Shown here one piece after another: positions 21,883 to 38,332 of a stretch of 38,439 nucleotides of DNA (positions are counted from its first letter, which is position 1; the number at the start of each line of letters is the position of its first letter). The notes below the pieces were generated by a model that saw only the letters and a list, made by a program, of their open reading frames with translations, was not told where the DNA came from and ran no database searches. The position numbers and the translations under genes are program-made. Source of the stretch: Clostridiales bacterium (GTDB lineage: Bacteria > Bacillota > Clostridia > Caldicoprobacterales > DTU083); contig DUOA01000158.1 in NCBI GenBank assembly GCA_012839095.1, positions 1 to 38,439 of the forward strand. The letters are read 5' to 3'.

Positions 21883-21905
21883 AAAAAAAGCTGAGGTGCT
21901 CAGCT
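21883..21905 (-). terminator. Intrinsic terminator of the ROK-GntR operon
   Basis: On the minus strand AGCTGA and TCAGCT form a 6-bp stem with a 5-nt loop, followed by a run of T. The TGA stop codon of the GntR gene lies inside the left arm, so termination begins within the last codons. Confidence 0.8.
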
Positions 21906-22616
21906 ATTAATTCTGATTATAAATTTGTTTCTGTCAGCAGGGTAATAACTTTCAGAATACTCTATCGGAGTATTGTCTTCAGTGTAACCTATTGAAGAAA
22001 TAAAATGCGCCGGTGAATTCTCCTTCACTTCCAATAACTTGGCTTGTTTACCATACAGCAGCTTTATTTCCAGTACCCGCTCTACTCTGTTTATAATAAT
22101 ATCGTTTTCTTTCAGCACATCATATAAGGATTGCTTTTCCAGATCATAAGCCATTATGCCGGAAGCATACTTTTCAGGCAGGTACACAGTCGTCAGCAGA
22201 ACCGGACGTTCTTCATAATTGGGGGCTGCATACCGCAGCCGCTTCAATTTGATCACATTGGTACCCGTCTGTATAGCCAGTTTGGATGCTACTGTTTCAT
22301 TACATGGTACTGCTCGAAACTCCAAAACCAGAGTTTTGGGCACAAGTCCTTTGCTCTTCATCTCCTGGTTATAGCTTTCTATAAACTGGGTGGATTCCTG
22401 CAGCAATTTCGGCTTGGCAACATAGGTGCCGCTTCCTTTGATACGATTCAGGTATCCCATACTGTCCAGTTTGGCCAATGCAGCACGTACAGTGGGACGA
22501 CTTACATTGAATTTCCTGCTTAGCTCCACTTCAGTAGGCAGTTTATCTCCTTCTCTTAACACCTGGTTTTCAATATCTTTCATGATATGATTAAAAATTT
22601 GTTCGTATAGGGGCAT
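21900..22616 (-). CDS. GntR-family regulator, HutC/UTRA type
   Basis: The 238-residue product has an N-terminal GntR winged helix (about 1-70; MPLYEQIFNHIMKDIENQV, then PTEVELSRKFNVSRPTVRAAL as recognition region and GSGTYVAKP as the wing) and a C-terminal UTRA ligand-binding domain (about 90-235), which in this subfamily binds small molecules, often phosphosugars. The start at 22616 is chosen because GGAGGT, located in the last codons of the ROK gene, is about 8 nt upstream; the gap to that gene is only 4 nt. By position it is likely to repress its own operon and the divergent isomerase/mannosidase operon through the TGTATTTACA repeats, with a sugar phosphate such as mannose 6-phosphate as a plausible inducer (inference). 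Confidence 0.93.
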   Translation of the reverse strand: MPLYEQIFNHIMKDIENQVLREGDKLPTEVELSRKFNVSRPTVRAALAKLDSMGYLNRIKGSGTYVAKPKLLQESTQFIESYNQEMKSKGLVPKTLVLEFRAVPCNETVASKLAIQTGTNVIKLKRLRYAAPNYEERPVLLTTVYLPEKYASGIMAYDLEKQSLYDVLKENDIIINRVERVLEIKLLYGKQAKLLEVKENSPAHFISSIGYTEDNTPIEYSESYYPADRNKFIIRINS

Positions 22617-22620
22617 ACTG

Positions 22621-23532
22621 TCAACCTCCATCAACTTCTGTGCCATTTCCATTTTCAAACAGCATTGCGCATGCCAGCAGTGCGTTATCGGAAAATCTGA
22701 TTGAGGGCACAACTTCTATATTATTTTGCTTCAGAGATTCCTTAATTCGTCTTTCAAAAAGGCTGTGACTTCTGCTCACATCCCCGCCTAAAATAACAGC
22801 CTCAGGCTTGAATTTTATGGCAAAGGGCCAGATGACTTCATACAGCATATCTCCAAATTCTTTGAACAACCGTTCTGCTTCCCCTAATCCGTCAAAAGCC
22901 GCCTGCGCCAGTTCCTTAACATCCCTAAACTGCGACAGGGTAGGTGACTTCTCCATCATCTTTCTGATGCCTGCAGCAGATACATAGTCGGTAACAATGC
23001 CGTCGCGATAGGGCAGATCGTAGATCCAGCCATCCTCAGGTATGCCTTCTCCGGATTTTACCAGCTTACCGTCAGCAAAAAAGCCAGTATTAATACCTGT
23101 CCCTATGCTAATGCACAAACAGCGATTGAACAGCCTGCCAACACCGAATTTACATTCCCCCATGCAATACAGGTCAACATCATTCTTGAAACGCAGTTCC
23201 AGATTACCTTTTAATCGGGACTTTATCTCATTCAGAATATTTACACCGTAAATTGCATCAAATTTCTGCAGTCCCATCATCAGGCTGATTCCATTTTCGT
23301 AGTCGAATGGACCGGGAAAACCCATTCCTATTCCGTGTAATAATATCTTTTCAGTATCAGCTGCTTCTATAAGCTTGTTAATAATGTTGACCAGATTACT
23401 TACAATGGTTTCCTTGCTTCCATTTGAAAGAGCCGGATATTTCTGTACAGGCAAAAGAAGCCTGCCGTCAGGGGAAACAACCGAAGCCGCGATACTGGTA
23501 CCACCTACATCCAATGCAATGTAGCTTTTCAT
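22621..23532 (-). CDS. ROK-family sugar kinase (probable hexokinase, possibly for mannose)
   Basis: The 303-residue protein has the actin-fold kinase layout: the N-terminal phosphate motif ALDVGGTSIAASVV, the Asn-Asp of FKNDVDLYCMGECKFGVGR with the probable catalytic base, the SIGTGINTGFFADGKLV motif and a C-terminal adenosine motif at AVILGGDVSR. The zinc-binding CxCGxxGCxE motif of many ROK kinases and repressors is missing, and there is no DNA-binding domain, so it is an enzyme and not a repressor. The neighbours (mannose-6-phosphate isomerase, alpha-mannosidase) suggest it phosphorylates mannose released in the cytoplasm; glucose, fructose or N-acetylhexosamines remain possible. AGGAGA precedes the ATG, and it is the first gene of the operon with the GntR regulator. 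Confidence 0.88.
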   Translation of the reverse strand: MKSYIALDVGGTSIAASVVSPDGRLLLPVQKYPALSNGSKETIVSNLVNIINKLIEAADTEKILLHGIGMGFPGPFDYENGISLMMGLQKFDAIYGVNILNEIKSRLKGNLELRFKNDVDLYCMGECKFGVGRLFNRCLCISIGTGINTGFFADGKLVKSGEGIPEDGWIYDLPYRDGIVTDYVSAAGIRKMMEKSPTLSQFRDVKELAQAAFDGLGEAERLFKEFGDMLYEVIWPFAIKFKPEAVILGGDVSRSHSLFERRIKESLKQNNIEVVPSIRFSDNALLACAMLFENGNGTEVDGG

Positions 23533-23567
23533 TTTTATTCTCCTGTCACTGGAAGTTCAGTAAATCA

Positions 23568-23799: not shown

Positions 23800-23851
23800 T
23801 GTATTTACATTTTTAGAATTTCACATCCTTATATTGTAATATGTATTTACA
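23800..23851. promoter_or_regulatory. Operator pair 2 (TGTA-NN-TACA sites), isomerase side
   Basis: TGTATTTACA occurs at 23800-23809 and again at 23842-23851, again 42 bp apart. The pair lies 37-88 nt upstream of the isomerase start at 23889, so it should cover or flank its promoter. I could not assign a confident -35/-10 here: TATATT at 23830-23835 is a possible -10. Between the two operator pairs (23644-23799) only A/T-rich DNA is seen. Confidence 0.75.
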
Positions 23852-23888
23852 TATGATATCATTTACACAGATTGCCAGGAGGTGCGAC

Positions 23889-25634
23889 ATGAGAAAAATA
23901 CCCCGTAACTATGATAAGTATCCCGAAACAATAGTTTATGGATATGATAATCATGCTTTTTCAGGCTATTCATCCATAGTTTCTGAAATAAAAAGACAAT
24001 TGGCGGACAGGAAGCGAGCAGTTATTGTACTGGATTTTTATCCCGGTGTATCGGAATATGAAATACTGAACGGGTTTGCCGGATTGAATTATACCAAAGC
24101 ATTTTGCGTTGATTCCTGTACCTATGACAATAAAACATATGAAGCCATGATACAGGATAACCTTACAGATGACTTGGTTTTTGGTGTTCTTACCACAAAA
24201 AAACTCTCTGACTACTTTGTCCGGGAAAAGACAGCCGAGTTACGCAGTGCAATTGAAAAAATCCAAAGCGGAATAATTCTGGTATATGGTGTAGGTGCTT
24301 CCCTGATTACAAAAGGAGACCTGCTTATCTACTGTGATTTAACCCGTTGGGAAATCCAAAAAAGATATAAGAAAGGTATGCCTAATTATAAGGGCAGCAA
24401 TACAGATGACCCCCACTATTCAAAGTACAAGCGTGGTTATTTTGTTGACTGGCGGCTGGCAGACCGTCACAAAAAGAAATTGTTTGATGAATTTGATTAT
24501 GTATTGGATACCAATGTGCCGGACGATCCTAAAATGATTACCGGAAAGGCATTTACTCACGCATTGAAGCTTGCTGCCAATCAGCCCTTCCGCCTGGTTC
24601 CCTTTTTTGATCCGGGTGTATGGGGCGGGCAGTGGATGAAGGATGTCTGCGGACTGGATCCTGACATGCCGAACTATGCATGGAGTTTTGACGGTGTGCC
24701 CGAAGAAAACAGCCTTTATTTCCGATTTGGAGATATTCGTATAGAACTGCCTGCTGTCGATGTAGTGTTCTATCAGCCCAGGGCATTACTTGGGGAACGG
24801 GTACATGGACGTTTTGGAGATGAATTCCCTATTCGGTTTAACTTACTCGATACCATGGGCGGACAAAATCTTTCTCTTCAGGTGCATCCCTTAACTGAAT
24901 ATATTCAGCAGACCTTTGGCATGCACTATACTCAGGATGAAAGCTATTATGTGATGGACTGCGAAGAGGAAGCTCATGTGTATCTTGGACTCAAAGAAAA
25001 TGTGGAAGCCGATGAAATGATAAATGAATTGAAAGCGGCTTCCCGAGGCGAGATTTTCTTTGATGATGAAAAGTATATCAATAAAGTACCTGTGAAAAAA
25101 CATGACCATCTTCTGATTCCTGCAGGTACAATTCACAGCTCCGGCAAGAATACAATGGTACTTGAAATCAGTGCCACACCGAACCTTTTTACATTCAAGC
25201 TATGGGATTGGGGACGTGTGGATTTAAATGGCCTGCCCCGTCCGCTCCATATTGAACATGGCGAACAGGTTATCTGCTGGGACAGAACAACAAAGTGGGT
25301 ATACGAGAATCTGGTAAACCAGATTGAGACCATTTCATCTGAACCAGGTATCGTAGAAGAAAAAACCGGCTTGCATGAACGTGAGTTTATTGAAACCAGA
25401 CGTCATATATTTACAAAGCCCGTAACACATTATTCCAACGGCAGTGTTTGTGTCATTAAACTCGTTGACGGAGATGAGGCAGAGATAGTTAGCCCGGATG
25501 GGAATTTTAAGCCAATGCTAATGCATTATGCAGAAACCTTTATTATACCTGCTTCTGTTGAGAGTTATATAATAAAACCTACAGCCAGATCCAAGGATCA
25601 GGAATTAATAACAATAAAAGCATATGTCAGGTAA
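23889..25634 (+). CDS. Mannose-6-phosphate isomerase-like protein with extra N-terminal domain
   Basis: The 581-residue product has a C-terminal part (about 240-580) with the zinc ligands of class I mannose-6-phosphate isomerase: Gln331 and His333 in LSLQVHPLTEY, Glu351 in QDESYYVMD and His416 in LIPAGTIHSSG, followed by FTFKLWDWGRVDLNG. About 230 residues precede this. They look like an alternating alpha/beta domain somewhat reminiscent of nucleoside or phosphoribulokinase-like kinases, but no P-loop is present, so it may be a degenerate kinase fold; this resemblance is uncertain. The ATG at 23889 follows AGGAGGTG; an ATG at 23841 overlaps the fourth operator and lacks such a site. It is the first gene of a two-gene operon with the GH38 gene, 55 nt apart. 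Confidence 0.87.
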   Translation: MRKIPRNYDKYPETIVYGYDNHAFSGYSSIVSEIKRQLADRKRAVIVLDFYPGVSEYEILNGFAGLNYTKAFCVDSCTYDNKTYEAMIQDNLTDDLVFGVLTTKKLSDYFVREKTAELRSAIEKIQSGIILVYGVGASLITKGDLLIYCDLTRWEIQKRYKKGMPNYKGSNTDDPHYSKYKRGYFVDWRLADRHKKKLFDEFDYVLDTNVPDDPKMITGKAFTHALKLAANQPFRLVPFFDPGVWGGQWMKDVCGLDPDMPNYAWSFDGVPEENSLYFRFGDIRIELPAVDVVFYQPRALLGERVHGRFGDEFPIRFNLLDTMGGQNLSLQVHPLTEYIQQTFGMHYTQDESYYVMDCEEEAHVYLGLKENVEADEMINELKAASRGEIFFDDEKYINKVPVKKHDHLLIPAGTIHSSGKNTMVLEISATPNLFTFKLWDWGRVDLNGLPRPLHIEHGEQVICWDRTTKWVYENLVNQIETISSEPGIVEEKTGLHEREFIETRRHIFTKPVTHYSNGSVCVIKLVDGDEAEIVSPDGNFKPMLMHYAETFIIPASVESYIIKPTARSKDQELITIKAYVR

Positions 25635-25689: not shown

Positions 25690-28329
25690 ATGTCAAAGAT
25701 AAAAGAAATCCTATGTATGCATCACAGCCACCTCGATATCGGATATACACATCCGCAGCCCATGCTTCTGGCGTTACAGCAGGATTATCTTAACCAGGCT
25801 ATTGATTTATGTGTTAAGACATCAGATTACCCTGAGGAATCACGCTTTCGCTGGACTTTGGAGGCGACATATCCACTTTTGACATGGCTGGAGAATGCGT
25901 CTGATAAGGATATCCGCCTTGTTGCCGACTTAATCGAACGCGGACAAATCAGTATTACAGCCTCTATGATGCACACCACACCGCTTTCTGATCTTGAAGA
26001 AATCATACGTTTATTTGAGCCGGTAAAGAAATTAAGAGAAATATTCGGCTGCCCAATCACTTCAGCTATTAACCACGATGTAAACGGTCAGCCCTGGCCT
26101 TTCAGCCAGGTGTTGCTGGATGCCGGGATTGATTTTTATCTGACAGGTATTAATATACACTTTGGAGGTATACCGTTTCAGCGACCTGCAGCTTTCTATT
26201 GGGAGACACCGGACAAACAAAAACTGCTATCCTATTTGGGTGAGCACTACTCCCTCTTCAGCCAGTATCTCCATACACACCAGGAAGATACAGGCCTGAT
26301 GGAAAAGGGCATCAATGAATATATTGAGAGATTGGAGAAAAGCAATTATCCTTATGACTTCCTGTTCCTGACAGCAACCAATCCTCCATTATATGACAAC
26401 AATTGTCCGGACCATGCGCTGGCGTCCCTGATCCGAAAATACAACAGCGAGGATCACGGCCATATCATCCGCTTTGTAACGCCTGAAATGCTAAAGGAGA
26501 AAGTTCTCAGCCAGAACCTCGAAATTCCCGTTCATGCAGGGGACTGGACTGACTACTGGAATTTTGGATCAGGCAGCTCTGCCCGGGAAACATCCCTTAC
26601 GCGAAGGGCAAAGGACAACTTGAAAAAAACCGAATTGATAGAAGCTGTGCTTGATACTCCAAACAGCCCAATTTACACTATGAGCAAAAAAGAAGCTTTC
26701 ATGCAAATAGCTCTTTATGATGAGCATACATGGGGTGCAGCCCAATCAATAAATGAACCCGACAGTATGGAAACCTATTCCCAGAGAACCCATAAATCAA
26801 AATATGCCTATGAAGCGGCGGATTTATCCGGATACCTTTTGGGCAGTCAGATGGAAAAACTGGCAGGAAATCCGGTTCAATCAAGTGAACCCGAAGGAGT
26901 TATGCTGGTAAATACATCTCCCTTTCCTCAGGAACTGCCCTTAAGGATACCCAGCTGGTATTTCTATAAAGGCCGACATTTATCTGCCTTGCGCACTAAA
27001 CAGTTCCTGCCCTACTCCAAAAACGGTGAATACAAGGAATTCGGCACTATAAAACTGGAGCCATTTGGCTGGAAAAAGATACCCTTCTCTTCCCTGCAGA
27101 ATTTTGAAAGTGTTGAAGGTTTGGTTTCAAAACATGCAGAGCCCGATAGCGGCAAAAAAGAAAAATTATATGATGTTACGGATCAGTCAATTGATACGCC
27201 CTATTATCACATGTCCTTTAATCCTGAAACAGGACGAATCACGAGACTTAGGGATAAAGGTTCTAATTGGGACATGCTGGACGATAGCAGTGAGTGGACC
27301 TTCTTCGAGTATGTTAATGAAACCATAGATCCAAGGCACCACAAGGAGAACCGCGAGACCCTTTTCCCCAGGGATATTGATCTGGGCAACAGAAGCATCA
27401 GTGTATGGAACCATGACTGGAAGGCCGTACGAAGGGGCATTGATACCATAGAATCATGGCATATTGAAGAAAATGAAAACGATGTATCCTTTGTCTTCAA
27501 ATCAAAAGGCTTTGGAGTCAGGAGTATGGAGCAAAGGATAACCTTTTCTGTGCTTCACCCCCGGATTGGTCTCAGTGTGAAGATGGATAAGGAAGACATT
27601 CGGGTACCGGAATCAATATACTTTGCATTTCCTTTGAATCTGGAAGAGGGATATAAATGTCATTTTGATACAGCCGGTTTGTTTGTTGAGCTGGACGAAG
27701 AACAGCTGGGCAATGTATGCAGGGATTATATTACAATTGATAAAACCGTTTCCCTGTATGACGGAAAAAAGGGTGTGACACTGGCTTGCCCCGATGCTCC
27801 GCTCGTACAGGTGGGCGACTTTAATTTTGCAAAAGAGCACAGAAGAATAAAGCGCACAAAGAACCCCCTGCTGCTTGCCTGGCCGATAAACAACTATTGG
27901 GATACAAACTTTTGGATCTCTCAGCCCGGTTATATAGAACTGGAGTATGAATTCACAGCCATAAGGGATTTTGATCCGGTTGAAACCTATCGGCTGGGGA
28001 TCAATGCAACAAGTCCGGTAGTAATGCTGGCAGCTGTAGATTGCAAAAAGGAGAAAAGCGGCACCCTTATTAAGAGCACCGCTGACGGAGTAATTCCCCA
28101 TTATATCAAACCCTCAGAAAATCCGGGCTGCTTTGTTATTACTTTAGTCAATACAGAGAACAAGGAGAATGAATTTATCTATTCCTCACCAAACAAAAAC
28201 ATTAGCAATGCCTTTTTAGTCAGTGTCCTGGATGAGGTAATTGATACTGTCCCTGTTATTAACAACGAGGTTAAAATTCTTCTCCCAGCCAGAGCCATTA
28301 GAAAACTACGCATAGAGTTGCAGCAATAA
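25690..28329 (+). CDS. Glycoside hydrolase family 38, probable alpha-mannosidase
   Basis: GH38 enzymes are zinc-dependent retaining alpha-mannosidases. The 879-residue protein has the zinc pair His14 and Asp16 in HHSHLDIGYTH, a probable nucleophile Asp130 in INHDVNGQPWPF, and a further probable zinc His346 in YDEHTWGAA. After the catalytic barrel (about 1-280) and helical middle part come the beta-sandwich domains, with FNPETGRITRL near residue 515 as the usual start of the C-terminal domain. There is no signal peptide, so it acts in the cytoplasm on imported oligosaccharides. The linkage cannot be predicted. The neighbouring kinase and isomerase genes support mannose as product. A ribosome binding site (GGGAG) is 9 nt upstream. 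Confidence 0.88.
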   Translation: MSKIKEILCMHHSHLDIGYTHPQPMLLALQQDYLNQAIDLCVKTSDYPEESRFRWTLEATYPLLTWLENASDKDIRLVADLIERGQISITASMMHTTPLSDLEEIIRLFEPVKKLREIFGCPITSAINHDVNGQPWPFSQVLLDAGIDFYLTGINIHFGGIPFQRPAAFYWETPDKQKLLSYLGEHYSLFSQYLHTHQEDTGLMEKGINEYIERLEKSNYPYDFLFLTATNPPLYDNNCPDHALASLIRKYNSEDHGHIIRFVTPEMLKEKVLSQNLEIPVHAGDWTDYWNFGSGSSARETSLTRRAKDNLKKTELIEAVLDTPNSPIYTMSKKEAFMQIALYDEHTWGAAQSINEPDSMETYSQRTHKSKYAYEAADLSGYLLGSQMEKLAGNPVQSSEPEGVMLVNTSPFPQELPLRIPSWYFYKGRHLSALRTKQFLPYSKNGEYKEFGTIKLEPFGWKKIPFSSLQNFESVEGLVSKHAEPDSGKKEKLYDVTDQSIDTPYYHMSFNPETGRITRLRDKGSNWDMLDDSSEWTFFEYVNETIDPRHHKENRETLFPRDIDLGNRSISVWNHDWKAVRRGIDTIESWHIEENENDVSFVFKSKGFGVRSMEQRITFSVLHPRIGLSVKMDKEDIRVPESIYFAFPLNLEEGYKCHFDTAGLFVELDEEQLGNVCRDYITIDKTVSLYDGKKGVTLACPDAPLVQVGDFNFAKEHRRIKRTKNPLLLAWPINNYWDTNFWISQPGYIELEYEFTAIRDFDPVETYRLGINATSPVVMLAAVDCKKEKSGTLIKSTADGVIPHYIKPSENPGCFVITLVNTENKENEFIYSSPNKNISNAFLVSVLDEVIDTVPVINNEVKILLPARAIRKLRIELQQ

Positions 28330-28395: not shown

Positions 28396-28482
28396 GGATT
28401 CCTGTACTGCCTGTATCTTATAAGCATTTGAAATTTAACGACATCAAGGCAAAAGCAGGAATCCTATTTTTTGGGCATTTTT
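28396..28482 (+). terminator. Long-armed terminator of the isomerase-mannosidase operon
   Basis: GGATTCCTG (28396-28404) pairs with CAGGAATCC (28456-28464), enclosing a 51-nt interior in which GCCT and AGGC can pair further. On the plus strand it is followed by two T-tracts of six. This suits termination after the mannosidase, just before the convergent permease gene ends at 28482. Confidence 0.65.
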
Positions 28483-29315
28483 TAACCTTTTACTCCGCCT
28501 TCAGCGATACCTTTCAATATCTCCGATGAGAAGATAATAAAGAGGATTAGTATAGGAACAGTAGCCAGTATTGACACAGCAAATGCAGAATCTATAGTCA
28601 TTAACAGCTTTTTAGTATATTTCATCACAAGCAGTGGCAAGGTCTTCTTTGAATCCGACTGTAAGAATATTAATGGGACAAAAAATTGATTCCAGATATT
28701 AACAGCCGTCAGGATGCTCATGGAGAAAACCACAGGAGAAGCCAGTGGAAACATTATCTGTGCAAAGGTACGGAACTCCCCGGCACCGTCTATTACAGCG
28801 GCTTCATATATTTCATGCGGCAGATTGGCAAAAAAGTTAGTTAACAAAAATACAGCCATTGAAATTGACGAGCCAAATATTAGAATAACCGAAGTAAAGG
28901 TATTAATAAGATTCAACTGTTTGGTTATCAGAAATACAGGTACAATACTCAATTGTATGGGAAACATCAGACCAACCAGAAAGTAAGTTTTCCAAAAACG
29001 CTTGAACCTGAATTTATAGTGTCCAAGTCCATAGGCCACGGTTGACGAAAGCAAAATTGACAGAATAAGCGCACCGGCCAGAATCAGAAAACTATTTAAG
29101 AAATATCTAAAGAAACCATCCTTTACAACAATTTTAATAAAGTTGTCGATAGTCAGGTTTACAGACAATCCAAAAGTATTAGTCAGGAAGTCAGTTCGTG
29201 GACGCAGTGAATTATAGAACATATAAATCAATATGGCTATATTAAAACCCGTGAAAAGCAGCATAATACAGCGAATAATCCGCGCTGAAGGCGATCTTAA
29301 ATCCTTGTGCATCAT
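28482..29315 (-). CDS. Sugar ABC transporter permease, MalG type
   Basis: One of the two membrane subunits of a carbohydrate ABC importer. The 277-residue product has about six membrane helices and the cytoplasmic EAA loop that docks on the ATPase, here EAAVIDGAGEFRTFAQIMFPLASP, together with an N-terminal tail ending in a first helix (about 14-32). The start overlaps the stop of the upstream permease gene by 4 nt (ATGA), so the two are translationally coupled; a second ATG directly after the first has the better spacing from GAGGAGG. Sequence type points to oligosaccharide uptake, but the substrate is unknown. The operon has no ATPase gene; a shared MsmX/MsmK-like ATPase encoded elsewhere is probably used. 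Confidence 0.93.
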   Translation of the reverse strand: MMHKDLRSPSARIIRCIMLLFTGFNIAILIYMFYNSLRPRTDFLTNTFGLSVNLTIDNFIKIVVKDGFFRYFLNSFLILAGALILSILLSSTVAYGLGHYKFRFKRFWKTYFLVGLMFPIQLSIVPVFLITKQLNLINTFTSVILIFGSSISMAVFLLTNFFANLPHEIYEAAVIDGAGEFRTFAQIMFPLASPVVFSMSILTAVNIWNQFFVPLIFLQSDSKKTLPLLVMKYTKKLLMTIDSAFAVSILATVPILILFIIFSSEILKGIAEGGVKG

Positions 29316-30238
29316 CTATCCTCCTCGCCCTTGCTCATGTAAAGTATTTGTGTCAAAGATATAGCAAATATAAGAACAAACAAAACGCAGGCAATAGTGG
29401 TGCCCATGCCTATTGAATTGGAAGATATTTTTCCGCCTACAGGGTTTGAGTCACCAAATGCGATACGGTAAAAGAACAGTGCCATAACATCTATGCTGCC
29501 TCCTACGCCTCCGGTATTGCCGCCCAAAACATAGCTGAAATCGAACATGGTCATGGCATAAATGTATGCTATCAAAATAAGGTTAATAATAGTCGCCCTG
29601 ATTTGCGGCAAAATTACCTTCATCAAACGAGTCCAAAAACCGGCACCTTCAATATATGCTGCTTCAAGGCCGTCGACGCTTACCATATTCATAGCACCTA
29701 TCAGGAAGGTCATGCCAACACCGATTCCGCCCCAGGTAATCATTAAATACATAAAGAAGATTCCCAGTTCAGGCACTCCCAGCCAAGGCTTTGCAAAAGC
29801 ATCAAGGCCGATCATTCTAAAAAGGTTGTTTACAACACCTACATTATCATCCAAAAGCAATCGGAAAATAAATACAATAATCGGTGTGGAAATAAACTGT
29901 GGTGCAAAGATGGTAACCTGAGCCAGCCGGTGGTTTTTCATCTTTGAATAAACCATGTAAGCAAGAATTATCTGCAAAGGCGTTTGGATAAATACCGTCA
30001 AAGCAAACAGCTTCAAACTGTTGCCTAATGCATTGGTAAACTGGCTCATTAAAAAATCATCTGTGAAAAGCTCCACATAATTACGTATCCATACAAATGT
30101 TTTTGGTCCGATTCCATTCCATTCATACAAGCTAAGCTGCATAGCAGAAAAAATGGGATAAATAATCAGAGCAGTATATAAGATTATACCCGGTACTAAA
30201 AAGAGTACATATGGTCTTCGTTTTATAAATGTTATCAC
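29312..30238 (-). CDS. Sugar ABC transporter permease, MalF type
   Basis: The partner permease of the importer, 308 residues with about six membrane helices. The EAA loop is EAAYIEGAGFWTRLMKVILPQ. The start is set at the GTG at 30238, which has GGGGGAT a few nt upstream and opens as (M)ITFIKRRPYVLFLVPG, the usual N-terminus; the ATG at 30253 has no ribosome binding site. It lies between the solute-binding-protein gene, from which it is separated by a strong stem-loop, and the MalG-type gene. Confidence 0.92.
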   Translation of the reverse strand: MITFIKRRPYVLFLVPGIILYTALIIYPIFSAMQLSLYEWNGIGPKTFVWIRNYVELFTDDFLMSQFTNALGNSLKLFALTVFIQTPLQIILAYMVYSKMKNHRLAQVTIFAPQFISTPIIVFIFRLLLDDNVGVVNNLFRMIGLDAFAKPWLGVPELGIFFMYLMITWGGIGVGMTFLIGAMNMVSVDGLEAAYIEGAGFWTRLMKVILPQIRATIINLILIAYIYAMTMFDFSYVLGGNTGGVGGSIDVMALFFYRIAFGDSNPVGGKISSNSIGMGTTIACVLFVLIFAISLTQILYMSKGEEDR

Positions 30239-30259
30239 GGCTATCCCCCACATTGTTGA

Positions 30260-30292
30260 TATACCTGTGCGGGCTCATCCCGCACAGGTATA
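30260..30292 (-). other. Stem-loop between binding-protein and permease genes
   Basis: A perfect 14-bp stem (TATACCTGTGCGGG with its complement) and a 5-nt loop sit between the binding-protein stop and the permease start. No T-tract follows in the direction of transcription. As in the maltose operon, it may stabilise the binding-protein mRNA and lower permease expression. Confidence 0.75.
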
Positions 30293-30316
30293 AGAACCCA
30301 CTGTAATATAGCTTGC

Positions 30317-31555
30317 TTACTTATTCATTTCCTCAACAATTTTATCCACAGCTTCCTTAGCGGTAATAGAATTAGTCATAAGATCAGCTACTACACTGGA
30401 AATAAATACATCCTGAGGTCTGCCTGAATCAGTAGGCACGTTGGATAATACATGGTATATATTGTTATTTACTGCCTGAAAATCTGAAACTTCCACCAAA
30501 GCCGGATCATCTACCGTAATTCCTTCCACGGCAGGAATTGACTTCATATAGTCAGCAACAATTTGCTGAGCTTCCTTGCTGTTAAGGAAATCTATATACT
30601 TAAATGCCTGTTCAGGATGCTCACATTTGCTGGATATTGCATAGGTATTGAAGTTTGAGTAACCTGTTTGCGCAGCCCTTACGCCGTTATTGTCAGGTAA
30701 AGCAAAGCGGCCAACCTCAAAATCCAGATCTCTAAAAAGTGAGTTGTTCCAGGTACCTTCAAAGATCATGGCAACAGTGCCGTTTGTGAATGCCATTTGA
30801 GCGCTGCTCTCATCCATGGCACCGGCAGGGGTACCAAAATAACCTTTTTCACACATATCACGGAATTGCTCAAAAACATACTCTATTTCGGGGAATTCGC
30901 CTGTTGTTTCACCGGCTTTGATTCGCTCCAGATCATTGTTTGCCAAGGTAGCTGCCATTACCTGAATAGGCCAGTATCTGGACCATTCAAAATCGCCTCC
31001 CAGGGAGAAAGGTGTAACACCTGCATCCAGAAGGGTATTAGCAGCATTAACAAACTCATCATATGTTTTTGGTTTCTCTAAGCCATGCTCTGCAAAGATA
31101 TCCTTATTGTAATATACCAATGCATAGTCTATAAAGCTTGGGAATGAGCAATAAATTTTGCCGTTTACTGTAGCATACTCGATAGCTGCATCCGGGAAGC
31201 GGGATTTATCCGGATTAAACTGGTCCAAAGGCAGCAGGAATCCATTTTCTGCCATTTCAGCCATCGCTGAGCTCTTGTTTCCCTGCACCCAGAACATGTC
31301 AGGAAGTGAGTCTGATTGCATAGCAACATTCAGACCATCAAAGGAACCTGACCATTGATAATCAATCTCTATATCGGGATGCTGGTCGGCAAAAGCTTTA
31401 TTCAGTGCTTCAAAGCAGTCTTCCAGAATTGCCTGGTTATCCGGGTCTCCCCATACAACCAATTTCACTTTCTTACCGTCGCCGGCAGAGCCGCATCCGG
31501 CCAGAAGTCCAATTAACAGAAGCAAAGTGGTGACTAGAGCAATACCTTTTTTCAT
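30317..31555 (-). CDS. Sugar ABC transporter solute-binding lipoprotein (family 1)
   Basis: This is the extracellular ligand-binding part of the importer. The 412-residue product starts with a lipoprotein signal (MKKGIALVTTLLLLIG) whose lipobox LLAGC gives a lipidated Cys21. The mature part begins VKLVVWGDPDN and has the two-lobe layout of family-1 proteins, with the signature-like stretch GVRAAQTGYSNFNTYAISSKCEHPEQAFKY shortened here to its recognisable end, in which a stretch of uncharged residues precedes HPEQAFKYIDFL. The ATG at 31555 has a GGAGAG site; an in-frame start nine codons earlier does not. It is the first gene of the importer operon and has about 300 nt of upstream DNA with repeats of possible regulatory use. 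Confidence 0.93.
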   Translation of the reverse strand: MKKGIALVTTLLLLIGLLAGCGSAGDGKKVKLVVWGDPDNQAILEDCFEALNKAFADQHPDIEIDYQWSGSFDGLNVAMQSDSLPDMFWVQGNKSSAMAEMAENGFLLPLDQFNPDKSRFPDAAIEYATVNGKIYCSFPSFIDYALVYYNKDIFAEHGLEKPKTYDEFVNAANTLLDAGVTPFSLGGDFEWSRYWPIQVMAATLANNDLERIKAGETTGEFPEIEYVFEQFRDMCEKGYFGTPAGAMDESSAQMAFTNGTVAMIFEGTWNNSLFRDLDFEVGRFALPDNNGVRAAQTGYSNFNTYAISSKCEHPEQAFKYIDFLNSKEAQQIVADYMKSIPAVEGITVDDPALVEVSDFQAVNNNIYHVLSNVPTDSGRPQDVFISSVVADLMTNSITAKEAVDKIVEEMNK

Positions 31556-31574
31556 TTCTCTCTCTCCTTCTCTT

Positions 31575-31590
31575 ATTGACAAATTTTTGT
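31575..31590. promoter_or_regulatory. Dyad in the leader of the binding-protein gene
   Basis: TGACAAA and TTTGTCA are 7-bp arms with a 2-nt spacer, 20 nt upstream of the start codon. It is a typical size for a repressor site, and on RNA it would lie next to the ribosome binding site. No factor is identified. Confidence 0.4.
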
Positions 31591-31854: not shown

Positions 31855-32880
31855 TTACCGCCGCTTCCGCGGATTCGGATTCCTATACCAGAAAAAAGGG
31901 TTCAGCAGAGGACTCTTTTCAAAACTTTTCGGCTTCATAAATACGTACTTCCCTTCCTGATACCGGGGACCGATACAATCATCGTAGCTTTCTCCGAAAA
32001 GCTCCTTGTAGAATACACCCTTTATCCCCTTATCATCCAGTATAATCCCGCCCCAGCCGGTACAGGTTCCGATGCTGTAAGCAACAGCCGGAAATGTACC
32101 ATATAGTTTATTGCGGTATTTCCAAAGTGAAGGTTTGTGTGTATGGCCGGAGAATACACCCATTACATTCGGGCATTCATCAATTAACCGGATCATGTCT
32201 TTGTCCAGATACAGAGCTCCATCCGTCCAGTTACCTGACGGCATAATATGAGCATGTTGATATATCAATACCGGAAGGTTGTCTTCCTTAAGCTCTGCAG
32301 ACAGGAATTCCTTTTGCCTGTCTGACATAACAATATCGGGTAATTTGACAGTATCCAATACAATGTGCTTTATTCCACCGCGTATGACGGAGTAGAAAAA
32401 TTCATCCGGGTTATCAAGGTCAGGCCATCCGGGGCATCTTATTTCAGACCACAACTCCTTCATCCTTTCCTTTTCAGGAAGCTGCAGATGCTCATGATTT
32501 CCCATAACCGGAAGAGTAGGAATTTCGCAAATACCGGTATTCATGATACTGGAAAACTCCCCCCACTCTTCCTCACGGCCCATTTCTGTTATATCTCCTC
32601 CCAGTACAATAAGCTCCGGCTTTTTCGTCAATGCACTGATCTCGTGCAGGCATAGCATATACTGCCTGCTGCAGTCAATGTGCTCGTAAATCCCCCCAAA
32701 ACCTGAAAAGGGAAAGGGATATCCTTCTGGAGGATGCAGGTGAAGATCGCCGGCCCAGGCTATAATTTGGATTCCGGACAAATCAGTACAGCGTTTTACA
32801 ATTTCCTGATTGAGTGAGGCAACTGAATCCCTGCCCATTTCCGCTTCCTTTTCTGTCAGCGGTTTATTAAGAATTGACAA
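31855..32880 (-). CDS. Calcineurin-like metallophosphoesterase
   Basis: The 341-residue protein has all blocks of a dimetal phosphoesterase: Asp45 and His47 in AGDLHLH, Asp96 in LGGDITE, Asn128 and His129 in MGNHEH, His209 in YQHAH, and His246/His248 in FSGHTHKPS. No signal peptide or membrane segment is seen, so it acts in the cytoplasm. The family cleaves phosphomonoesters or diesters of very different substrates, so the substrate is open. The start is a TTG preceded by GGGGGT about 8 nt upstream, overlapping nothing; it begins 18 nt after the UroD-like gene and belongs to that operon. The context suggests a phosphate-containing sugar or a phosphodiester-linked glycan piece (inference). Confidence 0.88.
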   Translation of the reverse strand: MSILNKPLTEKEAEMGRDSVASLNQEIVKRCTDLSGIQIIAWAGDLHLHPPEGYPFPFSGFGGIYEHIDCSRQYMLCLHEISALTKKPELIVLGGDITEMGREEEWGEFSSIMNTGICEIPTLPVMGNHEHLQLPEKERMKELWSEIRCPGWPDLDNPDEFFYSVIRGGIKHIVLDTVKLPDIVMSDRQKEFLSAELKEDNLPVLIYQHAHIMPSGNWTDGALYLDKDMIRLIDECPNVMGVFSGHTHKPSLWKYRNKLYGTFPAVAYSIGTCTGWGGIILDDKGIKGVFYKELFGESYDDCIGPRYQEGKYVFMKPKSFEKSPLLNPFFWYRNPNPRKRR

Positions 32881-32898: not shown

Positions 32899-33912
32899 TT
32901 ATTCTCTGGCAGCTTCAGCCATGGCCAGTATGTTCTCTGCTGGTATATTGGGCAGGATTTCCTCATGGCTGGGCGAAATGACGATATTCGGACCTAAAAC
33001 ATCACGAACTCGTCTTACCTCATCCTTGATCTGCTGCGGTGTTGCATTGACAAAAAAGGTCTGGGCATCAATTCCCCCTACAAAGGCCAGATCACCTTTG
33101 TATTGAGAAAGACTCTCTGCATCCATCCCAGCTGCTTGTGCCTGTATTGGGTGCAGTATTTCAACTCCGGCTTCTATCAGATCTGGTATAATACCGGCAA
33201 TAGAGCCGCAGGAATGCAACATTATCTTCTTATTGTACTTTTTACCGACAGCTATGATGCGTTTAAAGGAAGGCAGCACAAATTTTCGGAAAGCAGGAGG
33301 TGAGATAAACAGCTCCCGCTGGGTGCCAAAGTCATTTCCAAAGAACATAACATCTGCCCTTGAACCCAGTCCTTTAAAAAAGATGTCGTTTGCTGCAACG
33401 TAGTAGTCCACTACCTTTTCTGTAACAGCTTCCACTATTTTTGGATTATCGTACATTTTCATGAAATAATTTTCCAGACCAAAAAAATCGCAAAGGTCAT
33501 GGAAAAAAGGGCACCACATTCCGGTGAATATCATTTTATCCTGATGCTGATCTATTTTGCTGTAGATATTATCAAAATTGCAGTACTTTACATCGGGCCA
33601 GGGGTAAGCCTCAACCTCTGCTATAGTTTCGGTTTCAGCAAAACATCCTGCTGAACTCAGGCTGCGGCTTTTATTAATTCCATATCCCGGGTCAAAAGCC
33701 CGTTTGCCTTCCGGATGCTGGTATCCTGAGTCTGCCATAAACCAACGGCAATCGTCCTGCAGATAATTAAATATCGCTTCATCACTTTCCTCGATTCCCC
33801 AGGCCCTTGCATAAATCGGTATCGTATCGGGATTGGGATGTCCTGTCCACATCGCCCCTTCTCCATTTGAGCGGCGCTTAAAAATACTGTTTACTTTTTC
33901 TCTTGAAGTCAT
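32899..33912 (-). CDS. UroD/MtaA-fold protein, methyltransferase-like (first copy)
   Basis: The 338-residue product belongs to the uroporphyrinogen-decarboxylase superfamily, which also holds the cobamide-dependent methyltransferases MtaA and CmuA. The HemE N-terminal substrate motif (RQAGRY) is absent, so a haem role is unlikely. Instead it has the zinc-type His233-x-Cys235 in LHSCGSIAG, as in MtaA. Where MtaA has its third ligand, a cysteine near the C-terminus, this protein has PSHEEILPN with His316. The start at 33912 has AAGGAG 8 nt upstream; the frame extends to 33993 without a site. No corrinoid protein is nearby. Such proteins are frequent in sugar clusters of Firmicutes and their reaction is not known. 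Confidence 0.85.
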   Translation of the reverse strand: MTSREKVNSIFKRRSNGEGAMWTGHPNPDTIPIYARAWGIEESDEAIFNYLQDDCRWFMADSGYQHPEGKRAFDPGYGINKSRSLSSAGCFAETETIAEVEAYPWPDVKYCNFDNIYSKIDQHQDKMIFTGMWCPFFHDLCDFFGLENYFMKMYDNPKIVEAVTEKVVDYYVAANDIFFKGLGSRADVMFFGNDFGTQRELFISPPAFRKFVLPSFKRIIAVGKKYNKKIMLHSCGSIAGIIPDLIEAGVEILHPIQAQAAGMDAESLSQYKGDLAFVGGIDAQTFFVNATPQQIKDEVRRVRDVLGPNIVISPSHEEILPNIPAENILAMAEAARE

Positions 33913-33952
33913 GCCAATTGCTCCTTCATCTTTCGGTTTTTGGGTTAACTGT

Positions 33953-34042
33953 TTATAATCCTGTATTGGAGCGCAGTTCTTCCAGTTTATCATAGAAGTT
34001 TACCATAGGCTGACTGCACATTCTTTCATCATCATTATCCAT
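33953..34042 (-). CDS. Possible small protein of 29 residues between the UroD-like genes
   Basis: An ATG overlaps the TAA stop of the upstream UroD-like gene (ATGGATAA) and opens a 29-codon frame that ends 40 nt before the next gene. The product starts MDNDDERMCSQP and has a likely helical end (FYDKLEELR). Stop-start overlap is typical of coupled genes, but the ribosome binding site is weak (AGAAAGA) and no family is recognised. It may be only a spacer. Confidence 0.25.
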   Translation of the reverse strand: MDNDDERMCSQPMVNFYDKLEELRSNTGL

Positions 34043-35252
34043 TCTTTCTGAAAGAAAGAGCTGTCTTATATATGGCCATTATTTTTTCCGGTGTGATGTT
34101 GGATTGAATATTATGAACCTGATTAAATACATATCCGCCTCCGGGGGAGAATATCTCAATCAGTTCCCGGGTATGCTGCTTAATTTGATCTATGGAACCA
34201 AAATTAACCAACCCCTGCATGTCTGCACCTCCGCCCCAAAAAACAAGGTCATTGCCATATTCTTTCTTCAATTGCAGCGGATCCATTCCCTTTGCAGAGA
34301 TCTGGACTGGATTCAAAATTTCCACGCCCGCATCTATCAAATCCGGGATCAAATCATAGATGGCTCCACAGGAATGCAGAAACACCTTGATATGAGGATA
34401 ATTATTTCTGACAAACTCATATTGCCTTTGATGATAAGGCTTAATCATTTCCCTGTACATATCAGTTGATATCTGAGGGGCCTGCTGGGTACCCAGATCA
34501 TCTCCAAATTGGATGACATTGATATACTTGCCCACGGCTTTCAGATATTTGTCCAAATCCCTTAAATATGCATCAGTCAACTTGTTAAGCCAATAATGGA
34601 CAAGATCCTTATTAATAGCCAGATCAACATAGAACTTCTCATATCCCCAATTTATTTGACCTGCTTCAAAAATATTGCCGCCAAAGGCAGCCAAAATTGC
34701 CTTATCTGTTTGTTCGTACAATTTCCTGGCTTCTTTCTCCAGAAAGGCCAGTTCCTCATCGGTAATTTCCGGAATAGCTATATTATCTATGTCCTGATAG
34801 GTCTCCACCTTCTCATACGGATGAATAACCTGATCAAAGTAGAAACCGCCTTTAGGCATGCGGGCTATTACGGTTCCCTTGTCTCTGATTTCCAGATCAC
34901 CATTTTCATTTGGAAGTGGTGAATAATCCTCGGGCACTGTAGCAACAAACTCGTCATACAATCGGACCTGCTTCCACCTGTCAATCTTTATGTCAAAAGC
35001 AGGAGCCAGCCTGTGAAGTTGTACCACATCACCACCCAGCAGATTCAGAACCTCCATTTCCGGCTCAGCCAATTGCTGAAAAACATCATACAATTTTACG
35101 GTACCTTCTTTAATTCCCAGGTAATCCTTCAGATTCTTATAAGCTCTGGCACTGATACCGGTAGAACGCATTCCGCCGAAATCAACCGGCAGTACATCCG
35201 GCTCTCTATGGCTTATTGCTTCAATTATTCTTTCTCTTGATGTCATATGCAC
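34035..35252 (-). CDS. UroD/MtaA-fold protein, methyltransferase-like (second copy)
   Basis: A 405-residue relative of the protein encoded at 32899-33912, sharing the opening MTSRER and the sections around His293-x-Cys295 (FLHSCGAIYDLIPDLIDAGVE in both, with small changes) and FNQVHNIQSNITPEK with His380 at the place of the third metal ligand. It is about 65 residues longer. The HemE substrate motif is missing, so it is not a haem enzyme. The start is GTG at 35252 or ATG at 35246; an in-frame TAA just upstream rules out earlier starts. The only good ribosome binding site (GGGAGGT, 35278-35284) is 25-31 nt away, with a hairpin in between. Confidence 0.85.
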   Translation of the reverse strand: MHMTSRERIIEAISHREPDVLPVDFGGMRSTGISARAYKNLKDYLGIKEGTVKLYDVFQQLAEPEMEVLNLLGGDVVQLHRLAPAFDIKIDRWKQVRLYDEFVATVPEDYSPLPNENGDLEIRDKGTVIARMPKGGFYFDQVIHPYEKVETYQDIDNIAIPEITDEELAFLEKEARKLYEQTDKAILAAFGGNIFEAGQINWGYEKFYVDLAINKDLVHYWLNKLTDAYLRDLDKYLKAVGKYINVIQFGDDLGTQQAPQISTDMYREMIKPYHQRQYEFVRNNYPHIKVFLHSCGAIYDLIPDLIDAGVEILNPVQISAKGMDPLQLKKEYGNDLVFWGGGADMQGLVNFGSIDQIKQHTRELIEIFSPGGGYVFNQVHNIQSNITPEKIMAIYKTALSFRKNG

Positions 35253-35349: not shown

Positions 35350-36540
35350 TTAGTAAAGTTCATTATCTACTTCTTTTGTCTTATATTTTTCTTCCCAAAG
35401 CTTTTTCATTTCCTTCATTTCCTCATTAAGCTCTACCGGTATGGGATCGGTTTTGCTGCCCTCAGGAAATACAAAGGTTCTTACAAGAGGAACACGCTGC
35501 CTGACAGGAATGATTCCAAATTTTTTGTGGGGCTCCTTCTGATACCAATATGCAACGGATGAGTATTCATTGGACAAATGATTTCCATGTCCATGCTCAA
35601 TAGATGCCCGTACGCTTTTCGTAAATCTAACCGGATTAGTTACATAAAACACATACGAGGTCTGATAGCCCTCAGTCTCATGTTCATAGATTGAGCTCCC
35701 GTTATATAAGTAGGCATTAGGCTGCATACCGAAGGCCTGATTAAGAAAATCCTCGCTGCCGGTTCCATGAATGCTTGGCGGCCACTCTTCACCGTCTATG
35801 AAGATCATCTCATCTCCTTCTCCCCACCAGGTCCTTTCATGAGGCCTCTTAACAAAATGCTGCAGATTGGTCACTGAGAGGTTGAATCCTACCAGATGGC
35901 CTTCTCCCTCTGCTTCCATCAGTAGATAATTATCCTTGTCGGTATCGTTGATAATATTGGCAGGTTTCGCATTGGCTGTTATCTCGTGTGCCCATCCATT
36001 GGTCGGGTTTTCTCTTCTGAAGCACGCATGCAGGTAGGCGACATCATCTTCCAAAGGTGAATCATATGTCTCATAATCTATATAAAAATATTGGTAATGG
36101 TCAAACTCGGTTTCATTTACCAGCTCTACCCGGGCAGACTTGTTAAACGGCATGGGCAAATAGCAGTTCAATGCAACAAAGTGACCGAATTTATTCCTGG
36201 ACTGCTGACCGGTGGATGCAGTGAAAAACAGGCTCTGAAAGGAGTTAACCATACCATGGCCCAGGCAGAAGAAATCTCCTAAAGGCACCAGTATGCTCGG
36301 GTTTTCTTCTCCATCCCAATAGAACCTTAACAGAATTTTACGTAGAAACTCCGTGTCGTCATTTCCCTGTGTCATCCAAATATGGGTGATCTTGCCCGGA
36401 CCTTTGATATCAGCAAGCACCCTGGTTCCCCTTTTGGGAATTATCCAGGCATCCATATTTCTGCCTGTTACATCCCAGCTGGAACATCTCGTGGTTCTTG
36501 CCTGCTTAACACGAGTCAGGTTGTCAAAAATGTCATTCAT
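35350..36540 (-). CDS. Glycoside hydrolase family 172 (DUF2961) protein
   Basis: The 396-residue protein shows the DUF2961 pattern now classified as GH172: the N-terminal GPGKITHIWMT segment, WWGEGDEMIFIDGE (about 238-251) and the GTGSEDF segment (259-265), which carry the acidic residues expected in the active site (Glu244 and Glu263 are candidates), and SSVAYWYQ near the C-terminus. Characterised GH172 enzymes act on alpha-D-fructofuranosides or D-arabinofuranosides, including D-arabinan. No signal peptide, so it is cytoplasmic and acts on imported sugars. It lies between the binding-protein gene, with a stem-loop in the gap, and the UroD-like gene. The substrate is not known. Confidence 0.88.
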   Translation of the reverse strand: MNDIFDNLTRVKQARTTRCSSWDVTGRNMDAWIIPKRGTRVLADIKGPGKITHIWMTQGNDDTEFLRKILLRFYWDGEENPSILVPLGDFFCLGHGMVNSFQSLFFTASTGQQSRNKFGHFVALNCYLPMPFNKSARVELVNETEFDHYQYFYIDYETYDSPLEDDVAYLHACFRRENPTNGWAHEITANAKPANIINDTDKDNYLLMEAEGEGHLVGFNLSVTNLQHFVKRPHERTWWGEGDEMIFIDGEEWPPSIHGTGSEDFLNQAFGMQPNAYLYNGSSIYEHETEGYQTSYVFYVTNPVRFTKSVRASIEHGHGNHLSNEYSSVAYWYQKEPHKKFGIIPVRQRVPLVRTFVFPEGSKTDPIPVELNEEMKEMKKLWEEKYKTKEVDNELY

Positions 36541-36575
36541 AGGCTAACCCCTTTCCTATGACAGTGATTAAATAA

Positions 36576-36614
36576 TGTTTCAGGCTGTAAGCGAACAGCC
36601 AACAGCCTGAAACA
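36576..36614 (-). other. Stem-loop between binding-protein and GH172 genes
   Basis: A perfect 13-bp stem (TGTTTCAGGCTGT and its complement) with a 13-nt loop stands 45 nt after the binding-protein stop. The sequence following on the minus strand is only moderately T-rich, so it is either a weak terminator or an mRNA-stabilising element. The remainder of the 36541-36658 gap shows no gene. Confidence 0.7.
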
Positions 36615-36658
36615 AACTATAAATAACGCTTTAACCAGTCTCTGTAAAGCAGAGTGAA

Positions 36659-38332
36659 CTAATTGTTAAAGTATCTGTCTGCAGCTGCATTGTATATATC
36701 AAGAACACGTTGCAGATCATAGGAGTTCTTAAAAGTATCCATAAAGCTGTCCCATTCATCCATGCTTACGTCTCCACTGATAAAGTCAGCCTGCATCTGA
36801 GATGTATAGGTAACCAGTTGGGTAAGAATGGAGGAAGCTTCTTCATTTTCCTCGGCTGTAAGCTTAATGGCAGGTGAATCATATGTTGGCGGGATATATT
36901 CGTTGGGCCAGCTCAGGTTTCTGAAGAACTCGGTATCTAATACCGGTACTTCTTCATACTTGCCGCCGAAGTATGTGTAATCGGGAATCGGGAAGGAGAT
37001 TGCCCTTGCCTTATTGTCCTGAATTACACGGATTCCGGGGTTTGCTCTGCCGCTTCGGTCATTCCATAGGCCATATTTGTCTGCAACCTTGGAAGGATCA
37101 TCTGTCTCATAAAACTCATCTATGAATTTCTTTTCTCCGTCAACTATGTTATAGGTTACGCCTTCGATTCCCCAGGAGGTAATTTCATATACCTCAGGTA
37201 AAAACTGAAGATCAATGAGCTTAACCAGCAGTTCAGGATGCTCTGTTTCCGCATTAACACTATGGATGGTCCAACCCATAAGCTCAACTGTGTTTGCTCT
37301 GGTAAATCCCTGCCATGCTTTTCCATATCCTTCAGCATTGGGAACCAAGGCAGATACAAAGGTTCTGTCTCTCGCATCCCTGGTATACTCAGAAGCGTGC
37401 GTTCTCCAGGCATTCATTAACATAAAGTTTTCTTCATTAAGCATCTTGGTCTTTATAGTGTCTACTGTGTCGATTATATATTCCGGATCGAGTAAGCCTT
37501 CTGCATACAACTTGTGCAGGTACTCCACACCCATTTTATACTCATCATGCAAGCCGGCAAAGGTATATTCATCACCGTCCCAGTATAAGGTGCCTGCTCC
37601 ATCAAGGTTGGCATAAATTTGGTAGGCATAAAATACCGGGAAAATTCCTGCATAATTGGTATTTATGGGGAAGGAGTTAGGATATTTCTCCTTGAACTGC
37701 TTTGCCGCCTGATACCATCCATCCAGTGTGTCAGGTATTTCAATGCCTTCTCTCTGGAATGCAGTATAGTTAAACATAGCATTATTCTGGAGATCAGGAG
37801 CTCTGTCGGGATCTGTAATAGGCAATATTATCTGGTAAATACCGGGTATCATACCATTGTCCATGGTTATAGTTGCTCTGCCGTCCTTAGCCTGATCCAC
37901 AAGAGCCATATAGTTGGGCATGTCATATTTGGCAAAATCCAAGAAGTAACCTTCATTTGCCATATCCGTATAGTTATACAGGAAGGGAAGCAGGAAGTAA
38001 TCAGGTAAATCACCGCTGGTCAGCAGAATGCTCATTTTGTCATCATACTCAGCATTGGGCACATAGTTAAATTTTATATCAATTTTCATACCCATAAGCT
38101 CTTCCATCTTGTCCAGCCAGGCCAAGTGCGCAGGTGTTGTTGAATCATCTACGCCTCTGCCGTTTACCATAGCAGTAAAACTAAAGGTATCCAAATCAGG
38201 GCCTTCTTCAGTTGGTACCGGTTCACCGGTTTCAGATGGTTTGTCTGTCGGACTATCTGCAGGGCTGCCGGTACATCCTGCGACAGACAGCATCATTACC
38301 AGTACGAGCAGCAATATAATGCTCTTTTTCAT
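36659..38332 (-). CDS. Large solute-binding lipoprotein, LplA type
   Basis: The 557-residue product begins with a lipoprotein signal whose lipobox SVAGC places the lipidated Cys at residue 20, followed by a Ser/Pro/Thr/Glu-rich linker (about 21-47). The mature part has features of the large sugar-binding proteins of the LplA/YtcQ group: an early PAHLAWLDKMEELMGMKID stretch, DLPDYFLLP and a C-terminal ELLVKLIDLQF segment. These usually work with LplB and LplC permeases, which would lie to the right of the window if present. Ligands in this group include complex oligosaccharides such as uronides and xylan or mannan fragments. AGGAGG precedes the ATG. The GH172, UroD-like and phosphoesterase genes follow it in the same direction. 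Confidence 0.92.
   Translation of the reverse strand: MKKSIILLLVLVMMLSVAGCTGSPADSPTDKPSETGEPVPTEEGPDLDTFSFTAMVNGRGVDDSTTPAHLAWLDKMEELMGMKIDIKFNYVPNAEYDDKMSILLTSGDLPDYFLLPFLYNYTDMANEGYFLDFAKYDMPNYMALVDQAKDGRATITMDNGMIPGIYQIILPITDPDRAPDLQNNAMFNYTAFQREGIEIPDTLDGWYQAAKQFKEKYPNSFPINTNYAGIFPVFYAYQIYANLDGAGTLYWDGDEYTFAGLHDEYKMGVEYLHKLYAEGLLDPEYIIDTVDTIKTKMLNEENFMLMNAWRTHASEYTRDARDRTFVSALVPNAEGYGKAWQGFTRANTVELMGWTIHSVNAETEHPELLVKLIDLQFLPEVYEITSWGIEGVTYNIVDGEKKFIDEFYETDDPSKVADKYGLWNDRSGRANPGIRVIQDNKARAISFPIPDYTYFGGKYEEVPVLDTEFFRNLSWPNEYIPPTYDSPAIKLTAEENEEASSILTQLVTYTSQMQADFISGDVSMDEWDSFMDTFKNSYDLQRVLDIYNAAADRYFNN

Follow-up and report, generated by a model that had tools for sequence, protein, structure and literature searches.

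Gene content of the locus

This work concerns a putative glycan-utilization locus on contig DUOA01000158.1 (C116), which in its entirety (38,439 nucleotides) is the window analyzed here and which comes from the 2.7-Mb draft genome of an uncultured, anaerobic Clostridiales bacterium (GCA_012839095.1; G000). At the center of interest is UroD2, a protein of the URO-D superfamily that we consider a candidate corrinoid-dependent methyltransferase I for O-methylated sugars. A first-pass annotation had described a mannoside-utilization locus joined to a cluster encoding a GH172 glycosidase, a pair of UroD-like proteins, and a phosphoesterase. Pfam and NCBIfam searches of the window proteins located all of the gene families it had named, each where it had placed them. 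The features are given below, with orthologs from Clostridiales isolate AS04akNAM_22 (DUSN01000065; G004), which belongs to a sister genus and is the nearest relative carrying the cluster.

36659..38332, minus strand: LplA-type lipoprotein, extracellular sugar-binding protein (weak SBP_bac_1 match; 82% ortholog in G004)
35350..36540, minus strand: GH172 (DUF2961) glycosidase (Pfam 240 bits; 7v1v, E 8e-105)
34035..35252, minus strand: UroD2, URO-D superfamily, candidate corrinoid-dependent methyltransferase I (Pfam 75 bits)
32899..33993, minus strand: UroD1, second URO-D superfamily protein, HSC motif (Pfam 70 bits)
31855..32880, minus strand: calcineurin-like metallophosphoesterase, GpdQ-like (Metallophos 43.6 bits)
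30317..31582, minus strand: MalE-type sugar-binding lipoprotein of a CUT1 importer (SBP_bac_1 123 bits; 92% ortholog in G004)
30255..30297, minus strand: hairpin separating the binding-protein and permease genes (from folding; stem match in G004)
29312..30253, minus strand: CUT1 permease 1 (95% ortholog in G004)
28482..29315, minus strand: CUT1 permease 2 (89% ortholog in G004)
25690..28329, plus strand: GH38 alpha-mannosidase-like glycosidase, island member (Glyco_hydro_38N 54.1 bits)
23841..25634, plus strand: class-I mannose-6-phosphate-isomerase-like protein, island member (partial manA match, 30 bits)
22621..23532, minus strand: ROK sugar kinase, island member (ROK 84 bits)
21900..22712, minus strand: GntR/UTRA regulator, island member (UTRA 114 bits)

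The GH38 protein was assigned from its N-terminal domain, the sole support for the call, which scored above the curated cut-off of 25 bits. The isomerase had no Pfam match, and its score against TIGR00218 (manA) fell below the cut-off of 116 bits, so that it is a remote relative only. An early TTG makes the UTRA frame run into the end of the ROK gene; the in-frame ATG at 22616 is the likelier start. Around the hairpin, a 71-base stretch folds with -29.5 kcal/mol (z -4.9), and the 14-bp stem is identical in G004. The hairpin had no match in Rfam, no structured RNA of a known family was found anywhere in the window, and a comparison with plasmid records returned two distant matches and nothing else.

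The locus consists of two modules

The minus-strand genes at 28482-38332 (module 1) form a closely spaced run, with gaps of 118, 97, 41, 18, 272, and 63 bases from LplA inwards and an overlap between the two permease genes. Their order, LplA-GH172-UroD2-UroD1-phosphoesterase-binding protein-two permeases, is conserved in G004 at 82-95% identity, with an aldo-keto reductase, a cupin, a second GH38, and a sulfatase inserted between the shared genes. Upstream of LplA the contig ends, and predicted permeases would lie beyond that edge; in G004, two permeases, two further UroD genes, a GH38, and a GDSL/DUF4185 protein lie ahead of the run. Inward of the permeases is a convergent island (21900-28329; module 2) with GH38 and the isomerase on the plus strand and ROK and UTRA on the minus strand, followed by aconitase. 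This island is absent from G004, where the second permease gene directly precedes aconitase. Moreover, in G009 and G010, two members of the family without the UroD cluster, the isomerase (75% identity) adjoins the UTRA regulator (66-67%), and ROK is close by. Because of the synteny in G004 and the stand-alone isomerase-UTRA-ROK arrangement, the mannoside locus is a unit separate from the UroD operon, and the 16-kb stretch as a single system was ruled out on the same grounds. The importer, that is, the binding protein and two permeases, is part of the UroD operon and not of the mannoside island.

A search of the class (391 genomes) detected the phosphoesterase at E below 1e-25, or a close GH172 at E below 1e-100, in two genomes, the window genome and G004. 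Broad conservation of GH172 with phosphoesterase and UroD was found neither in these 391 genomes nor at 80 loci surveyed for relatives of UroD2. The genes joined in the first-pass annotation are all present, yet they fall into two units; the minus-strand run goes beyond chance adjacency in that its order is repeated in a second genus, and the GH38 island is separate from it. The set of GH172, UroD-like, phosphoesterase, and LplA genes, whose co-occurrence it had proposed as a check, is kept in two genera and no wider.

Elsewhere on the contig, positions 15702-16763 hold another mannose-6-phosphate isomerase-type gene, separate from the locus, whose G004 ortholog is ~31% identical to the 23841-25634 protein over 163 residues. 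An ordinary block of rnr and the glycolytic genes eno, gpmI, tpi, and pgk occupies positions 161-7569.

UroD2 relatives lie among sugar import and kinase genes

Relatives of UroD2 (35-65% identity) occur in Clostridia, Izemoplasma, Spirochaetes, Planctomycetes, Anaerolineae, Actinomycetota, and others; cultured carriers include Robinsoniella peoriensis and Christensenella hongkongensis. The same-strand genes up to two genes away from them (n = 109) included 12 permeases, 8 Peripla_BP_4 proteins, 7 ABC ATPases, 6 URO-D proteins, and 5 ROK proteins, together with 4 GlcNAc 2-epimerases, 4 PfkB proteins, 4 B12-binding proteins, 3 FGGY kinases, and 2 D-lyxose isomerases. In a comparison set of 109 genes lying more than 6 kb from UroD2 relatives, the transport families numbered 5, 4, and 3, and no kinases, epimerases, or URO-D proteins were among the top 25 families. 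Across the 80 loci, GH38 was present in 10, PfkB in 13, GH172 in 2, and the phosphoesterase in 1. The set that travels together widely is UroD2 with a sugar importer and a kinase (and GH38), without GH172 or phosphoesterase. In two genomes of the window's own family (G001 and G002), UroD2 is paired with PfkB, a mannitol-type dehydrogenase, and a D-lyxose isomerase. As D-lyxose and D-mannose have an identical configuration at C2-C4, this pairing suggests a manno-configured sugar.

Fold and metal site of UroD2

The predicted structure of UroD2 (pLDDT 95.5) matched HemE (Z 26.6) and MtaA (4ay7; Z 25.5, 19% identity) over its full length, and by this model UroD2 has the fold of the UroD-type methyltransferase I proteins. 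A PDB search with single sequences gave no direct match for the UroD proteins or GH38. H293-x-C295, H380, and D252 are invariant in all 44 aligned UroD2 sequences. The HxC motif is that of MtaA; His380 aligns with the HemE-type histidine, replacing the third cysteine of MtaA, and the MtaA-like paralogs within the family lack D252. UroD1, which is 30% identical to UroD2 and has its best NCBIfam match in mtaA_cmuA (61 bits, below the cut-off), likewise departs from the MtaA-type HxC...C zinc-ligand pattern, its third position being non-Cys (Ser-His). Because the third cysteine is replaced by His380 and D252 is absent from the MtaA-like paralogs, the metal-ligand test, applied to the sequence, classes UroD2 as not an MtaA-type thiol methyltransferase, and a remodeled metal site is plausible. 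The metal-type motif differs among UroD paralogs (HxC/H, HxC/N, HxD/N, and DxD/H), and the genome encodes a separate MtaA-like paralog with HxC/C on contig C107. A proven UroD-fold corrinoid methyltransferase I, CdmB, has a structure comparable to UroD, and zinc is bound by some proven UroD-fold O-demethylases but not by CdmB (PMC13222342).

The window genome encodes ~20 URO-D proteins (19 with an E-value cut-off of 1e-8, 22 with 1e-3) and a single B12-binding_2 (corrinoid) protein; G004 has ~30 URO-D genes, and in both genomes they are spread over many contigs (L031-L070). These genes form deep, pairwise conserved branches with differing metal-type motifs, many of them adjoining sugar genes. 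One URO-D gene (L048) has a member of the MTTB family and a sugar importer as neighbors.

Corrinoid and one-carbon genes

At four loci, two of Izemoplasma (L095, L096), one of Bacilli (L111), and one of Desulfosporosinus (L138), the immediate same-strand neighbor of UroD2 is a corrinoid protein 47-60% identical to the single one of the window genome. These four are among five corrinoid genes in the surveyed loci (hypergeometric p 0.0012 under random placement); they belong to two clades on opposite sides of the tree, with three in one clade, so that the number of independent events is two. The Desulfosporosinus operon reads RbsC-RbsA-binding protein-UroD2-corrinoid-FGGY kinase. That of Izemoplasma (L095) reads class II aldolase-flavin reductase-UroD4-like protein-corrinoid-UroD2-PfkB-D-lyxose isomerase-second PfkB-type kinase, with GH38 three genes past the last of these. 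Other URO-D genes also stand near corrinoid genes: in G012 (C47:1100-2867) the conserved corrinoid gene immediately follows a URO-D gene of high score, and in G013-G015 and G017 a URO-D/corrinoid gene pair lies within ~2.5 kb.

The corrinoid protein, reductive activase, and methyltransferase II of an O-demethylase system are all encoded in the window genome. On contig C90, the corrinoid gene lies with those for a PocR-AraC regulator and a RACo-type activase. Contig C93 carries methylenetetrahydrofolate reductase (MTHFR) and one run of an Etf-like protein, a pterin-binding methyltransferase, a formate/nitrite transporter, and formate-tetrahydrofolate ligase (Fhs). The corrinoid protein, RACo, MTHFR, the pterin-binding methyltransferase II, and the formate channel were confirmed with Pfam, and Etf and Fhs were assigned by eye. 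G004 likewise has a methyltransferase-channel-ligase run. An acetogenic outlet for the methyl group was dropped because acetyl-CoA synthase (CdhC family) was not found in five genomes, in a search whose control was positive in two archaea only, with no acetogen among the controls. Departure of the methyl group as formate fits, since the formate channel, Fhs, and MTHFR are present and no acetyl-CoA synthase was found. Taken by itself, the C93 region (L171:7808-13903) looks like a methyl-to-formate (or reverse) module in a genome without detected acetyl-CoA synthase.

GH172, the phosphoesterase, and the possible glycan

Characterized GH172 enzymes cleave alpha-D-fructofuranosides or alpha-D-arabinofuranosides. 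In the GH172 protein of the window, which has the motifs WGEGDE and GTGSED, Glu241 and Glu263 correspond to the catalytic residues Glu270 (acid/base) and Glu291 (nucleophile) of alphaFFase1 (PMC8605356). The phosphoesterase has all of the metal motifs DxH, GD, GNHE, H, and GHxH, with GpdQ (2zo9) as its nearest match (E 6e-11). These two enzymes do not pin down the glycan. As speculation, D-arabinofuranose together with mannose would suit mycobacterial or corynebacterial arabinomannan, and methyl-mannose would suit an algal or mollusc N-glycan; methylated mannose occurs naturally, e.g., in Chlorella N-glycans (PMC6344472).

Discussion

We tentatively propose, with confidence somewhat short of even, that UroD2 acts as a corrinoid-dependent methyltransferase I on a manno-configured sugar, removing an O-methyl group that then exits as formate. 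The proposal builds on the gene content, synteny, fold, conserved metal-type residues, sugar and corrinoid linkage of UroD2 relatives, and pathway parts described above. From these we infer the methyl-transfer reaction, the O-methyl-sugar donor, the shared corrinoid partner, and the direction.

Under this proposal, the minus-strand run would be a glycan-utilization operon in which GH172, with GH38 enzymes encoded adjacent or elsewhere, would free sugars from a modified glycan, and binding-protein importers would take them up. UroD2 would pass the methyl group of an O-methylated, probably manno-configured sugar to the stand-alone corrinoid protein (C90, with its RACo-type activase), and the pterin-binding methyltransferase II (C93) would hand it to tetrahydrofolate. 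MTHFR and Fhs would oxidize the methyl group to formate, which would leave through the formate channel of the same run, and the demethylated sugar would go to isomerase and kinase. Judging by family and position, we guess that UroD1 is a further methyltransferase, of different specificity, and that the phosphoesterase cleaves off a phosphodiester substituent. The suggestion in the first-pass annotation that the UroD-like pair removes substituents is favored in the form of methyl removal from a mannose-type glycan, given the neighbors of UroD2 relatives; its extension to a system spanning the whole 16 kb fell away.

Several points weigh against the proposal. The fold of UroD2 resembles HemE as well as MtaA, and specificity for an O-methyl sugar is not readable from sequence. 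The window cluster has no corrinoid protein, the only one in the genome being on contig C90; corrinoid linkage was seen at only 4 of ~76 UroD2 loci (~5%), and UroD1 has none of its own. A corrinoid protein was found in 29 of 30 genomes of the order, some without any UroD hit, and its presence did not covary with UroD number across the 30. A B12-less MetH-type protein is encoded on contig C24; the corrinoid protein probably has a part in methionine synthesis as well, which may be its main job, and the C93 run could operate reductively, for methionine.

In an alternative that we consider unlikely, the UroD-like proteins of sugar loci are non-corrinoid enzymes with another sugar reaction (metal-assisted lyase, decarboxylation, or ether cleavage) and their corrinoid neighbors are incidental or lineage-specific. 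It accommodates the 20-odd UroD-like genes against one corrinoid protein, the scarcity of corrinoid neighbors, and metal motifs that vary among paralogs, unlike the HxC/C of thiol methyltransferases. However, a corrinoid gene adjoins UroD2 in two independent clades, in Desulfosporosinus inside an importer-kinase operon. Several methyltransferases of Eubacterium limosum, moreover, use one shared corrinoid protein, which counts against this alternative.

It is improbable that the UroD pair consists of thiol/selenol methyltransferases resembling the Mlp proteins of type 1 mlp gene clusters, acting on methylthio compounds such as a methylthio-sugar, with one protein demethylating and the other remethylating the thiol. 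The HxC motif in common with MtaA, the mtaA_cmuA match of UroD1, and two UroD proteins per locus, as in mlp clusters (PMC10418091), are in line with this idea, but both proteins have lost the third cysteine of MtaA, UroD2 has gained the conserved D252, the distinct HxC/C paralog on C107 exists, and the surrounding genes are for sugar and not sulfur. That GH172, GH38, and the importers form an ordinary glycan locus in which UroD and phosphoesterase genes are co-localized without a joint role is decidedly improbable, for although the GH172-UroD-phosphoesterase set is limited to two genera and the GH38 island is separate, the closely spaced genes keep their order from one genus to the other, and linkage of UroD2 to sugar importers extends over many phyla.

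The proposed UroD2 route resembles the OdmB, VdmB, and CdmB systems of Acetobacterium dehalogenans, which combine a UroD-fold methyltransferase I with a separate corrinoid protein, an activase, and a pterin-dependent methyltransferase II (PMC13222342), parts that all have counterparts in the window genome. It differs in that methyltransferase I-like genes are dispersed among sugar loci and are more numerous than the one corrinoid protein, that acetyl-CoA synthase was not found, and that a sugar would take the place of an aryl ether or haloalkane as substrate. MtaA and the type 1 mlp proteins share the URO-D superfamily, the HxC motif, and the grouping of two or more UroD genes (PMC10418091), whereas UroD2 has lost the third cysteine ligand and has an extra conserved aspartate; unlike type 1 mlp clusters as defined there, the cluster studied here has two UroD genes but neither a corrinoid nor a Ram gene inside 2 kb. 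The GH172 protein shares the DUF2961 fold and catalytic glutamates with Bifidobacterium dentium alphaFFase1 and GH172 D-arabinofuranosidases (PMC8605356), but alphaFFase1 lies in a GH32 operon, and here the neighbors are UroD and phosphoesterase genes. Removal of methyl groups from sugars during polysaccharide use is known from the P450 demethylation of 6-O-methyl-D-galactose in marine bacteria (PMC10033563), which requires oxygen and yields formaldehyde, whereas the proposed route would be anaerobic and yield methyl-tetrahydrofolate. No report of UroD proteins in sugar loci and no biochemical report of sugar O-demethylation in anaerobes was found in a search of open-access literature, in which most subscription journals are missing.

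Algae, molluscs, mycobacteria, and plants have glycans with O-methylated sugars, and such sugars may be an obstacle to glycosidases. Among characterized ways of removing the methyl groups, we found just one, the oxygen-requiring P450 reaction. If our proposal is true, UroD2-type demethylation would explain how anaerobes finish O-methylated glycans, and sugars would become an additional source of one-carbon units. Such demethylation would extend known corrinoid methyltransferase systems, and the operons of Desulfosporosinus and Izemoplasma make the idea directly testable. In a broader form, which we hold to be rather unlikely, the large expansion of UroD-like proteins in the sugar loci of anaerobes would be a toolbox of sugar-specific methyltransferases that pass the methyl groups of O-methylated glycans to a common corrinoid protein and onward to formate, permitting oxygen-independent use of methylated polysaccharides. 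Sugar demethylation by UroD2-type enzymes would also assign a function to these proteins, which number up to 20-30 per genome in the order and for the most part carry no annotation beyond 'uroporphyrinogen decarboxylase'.

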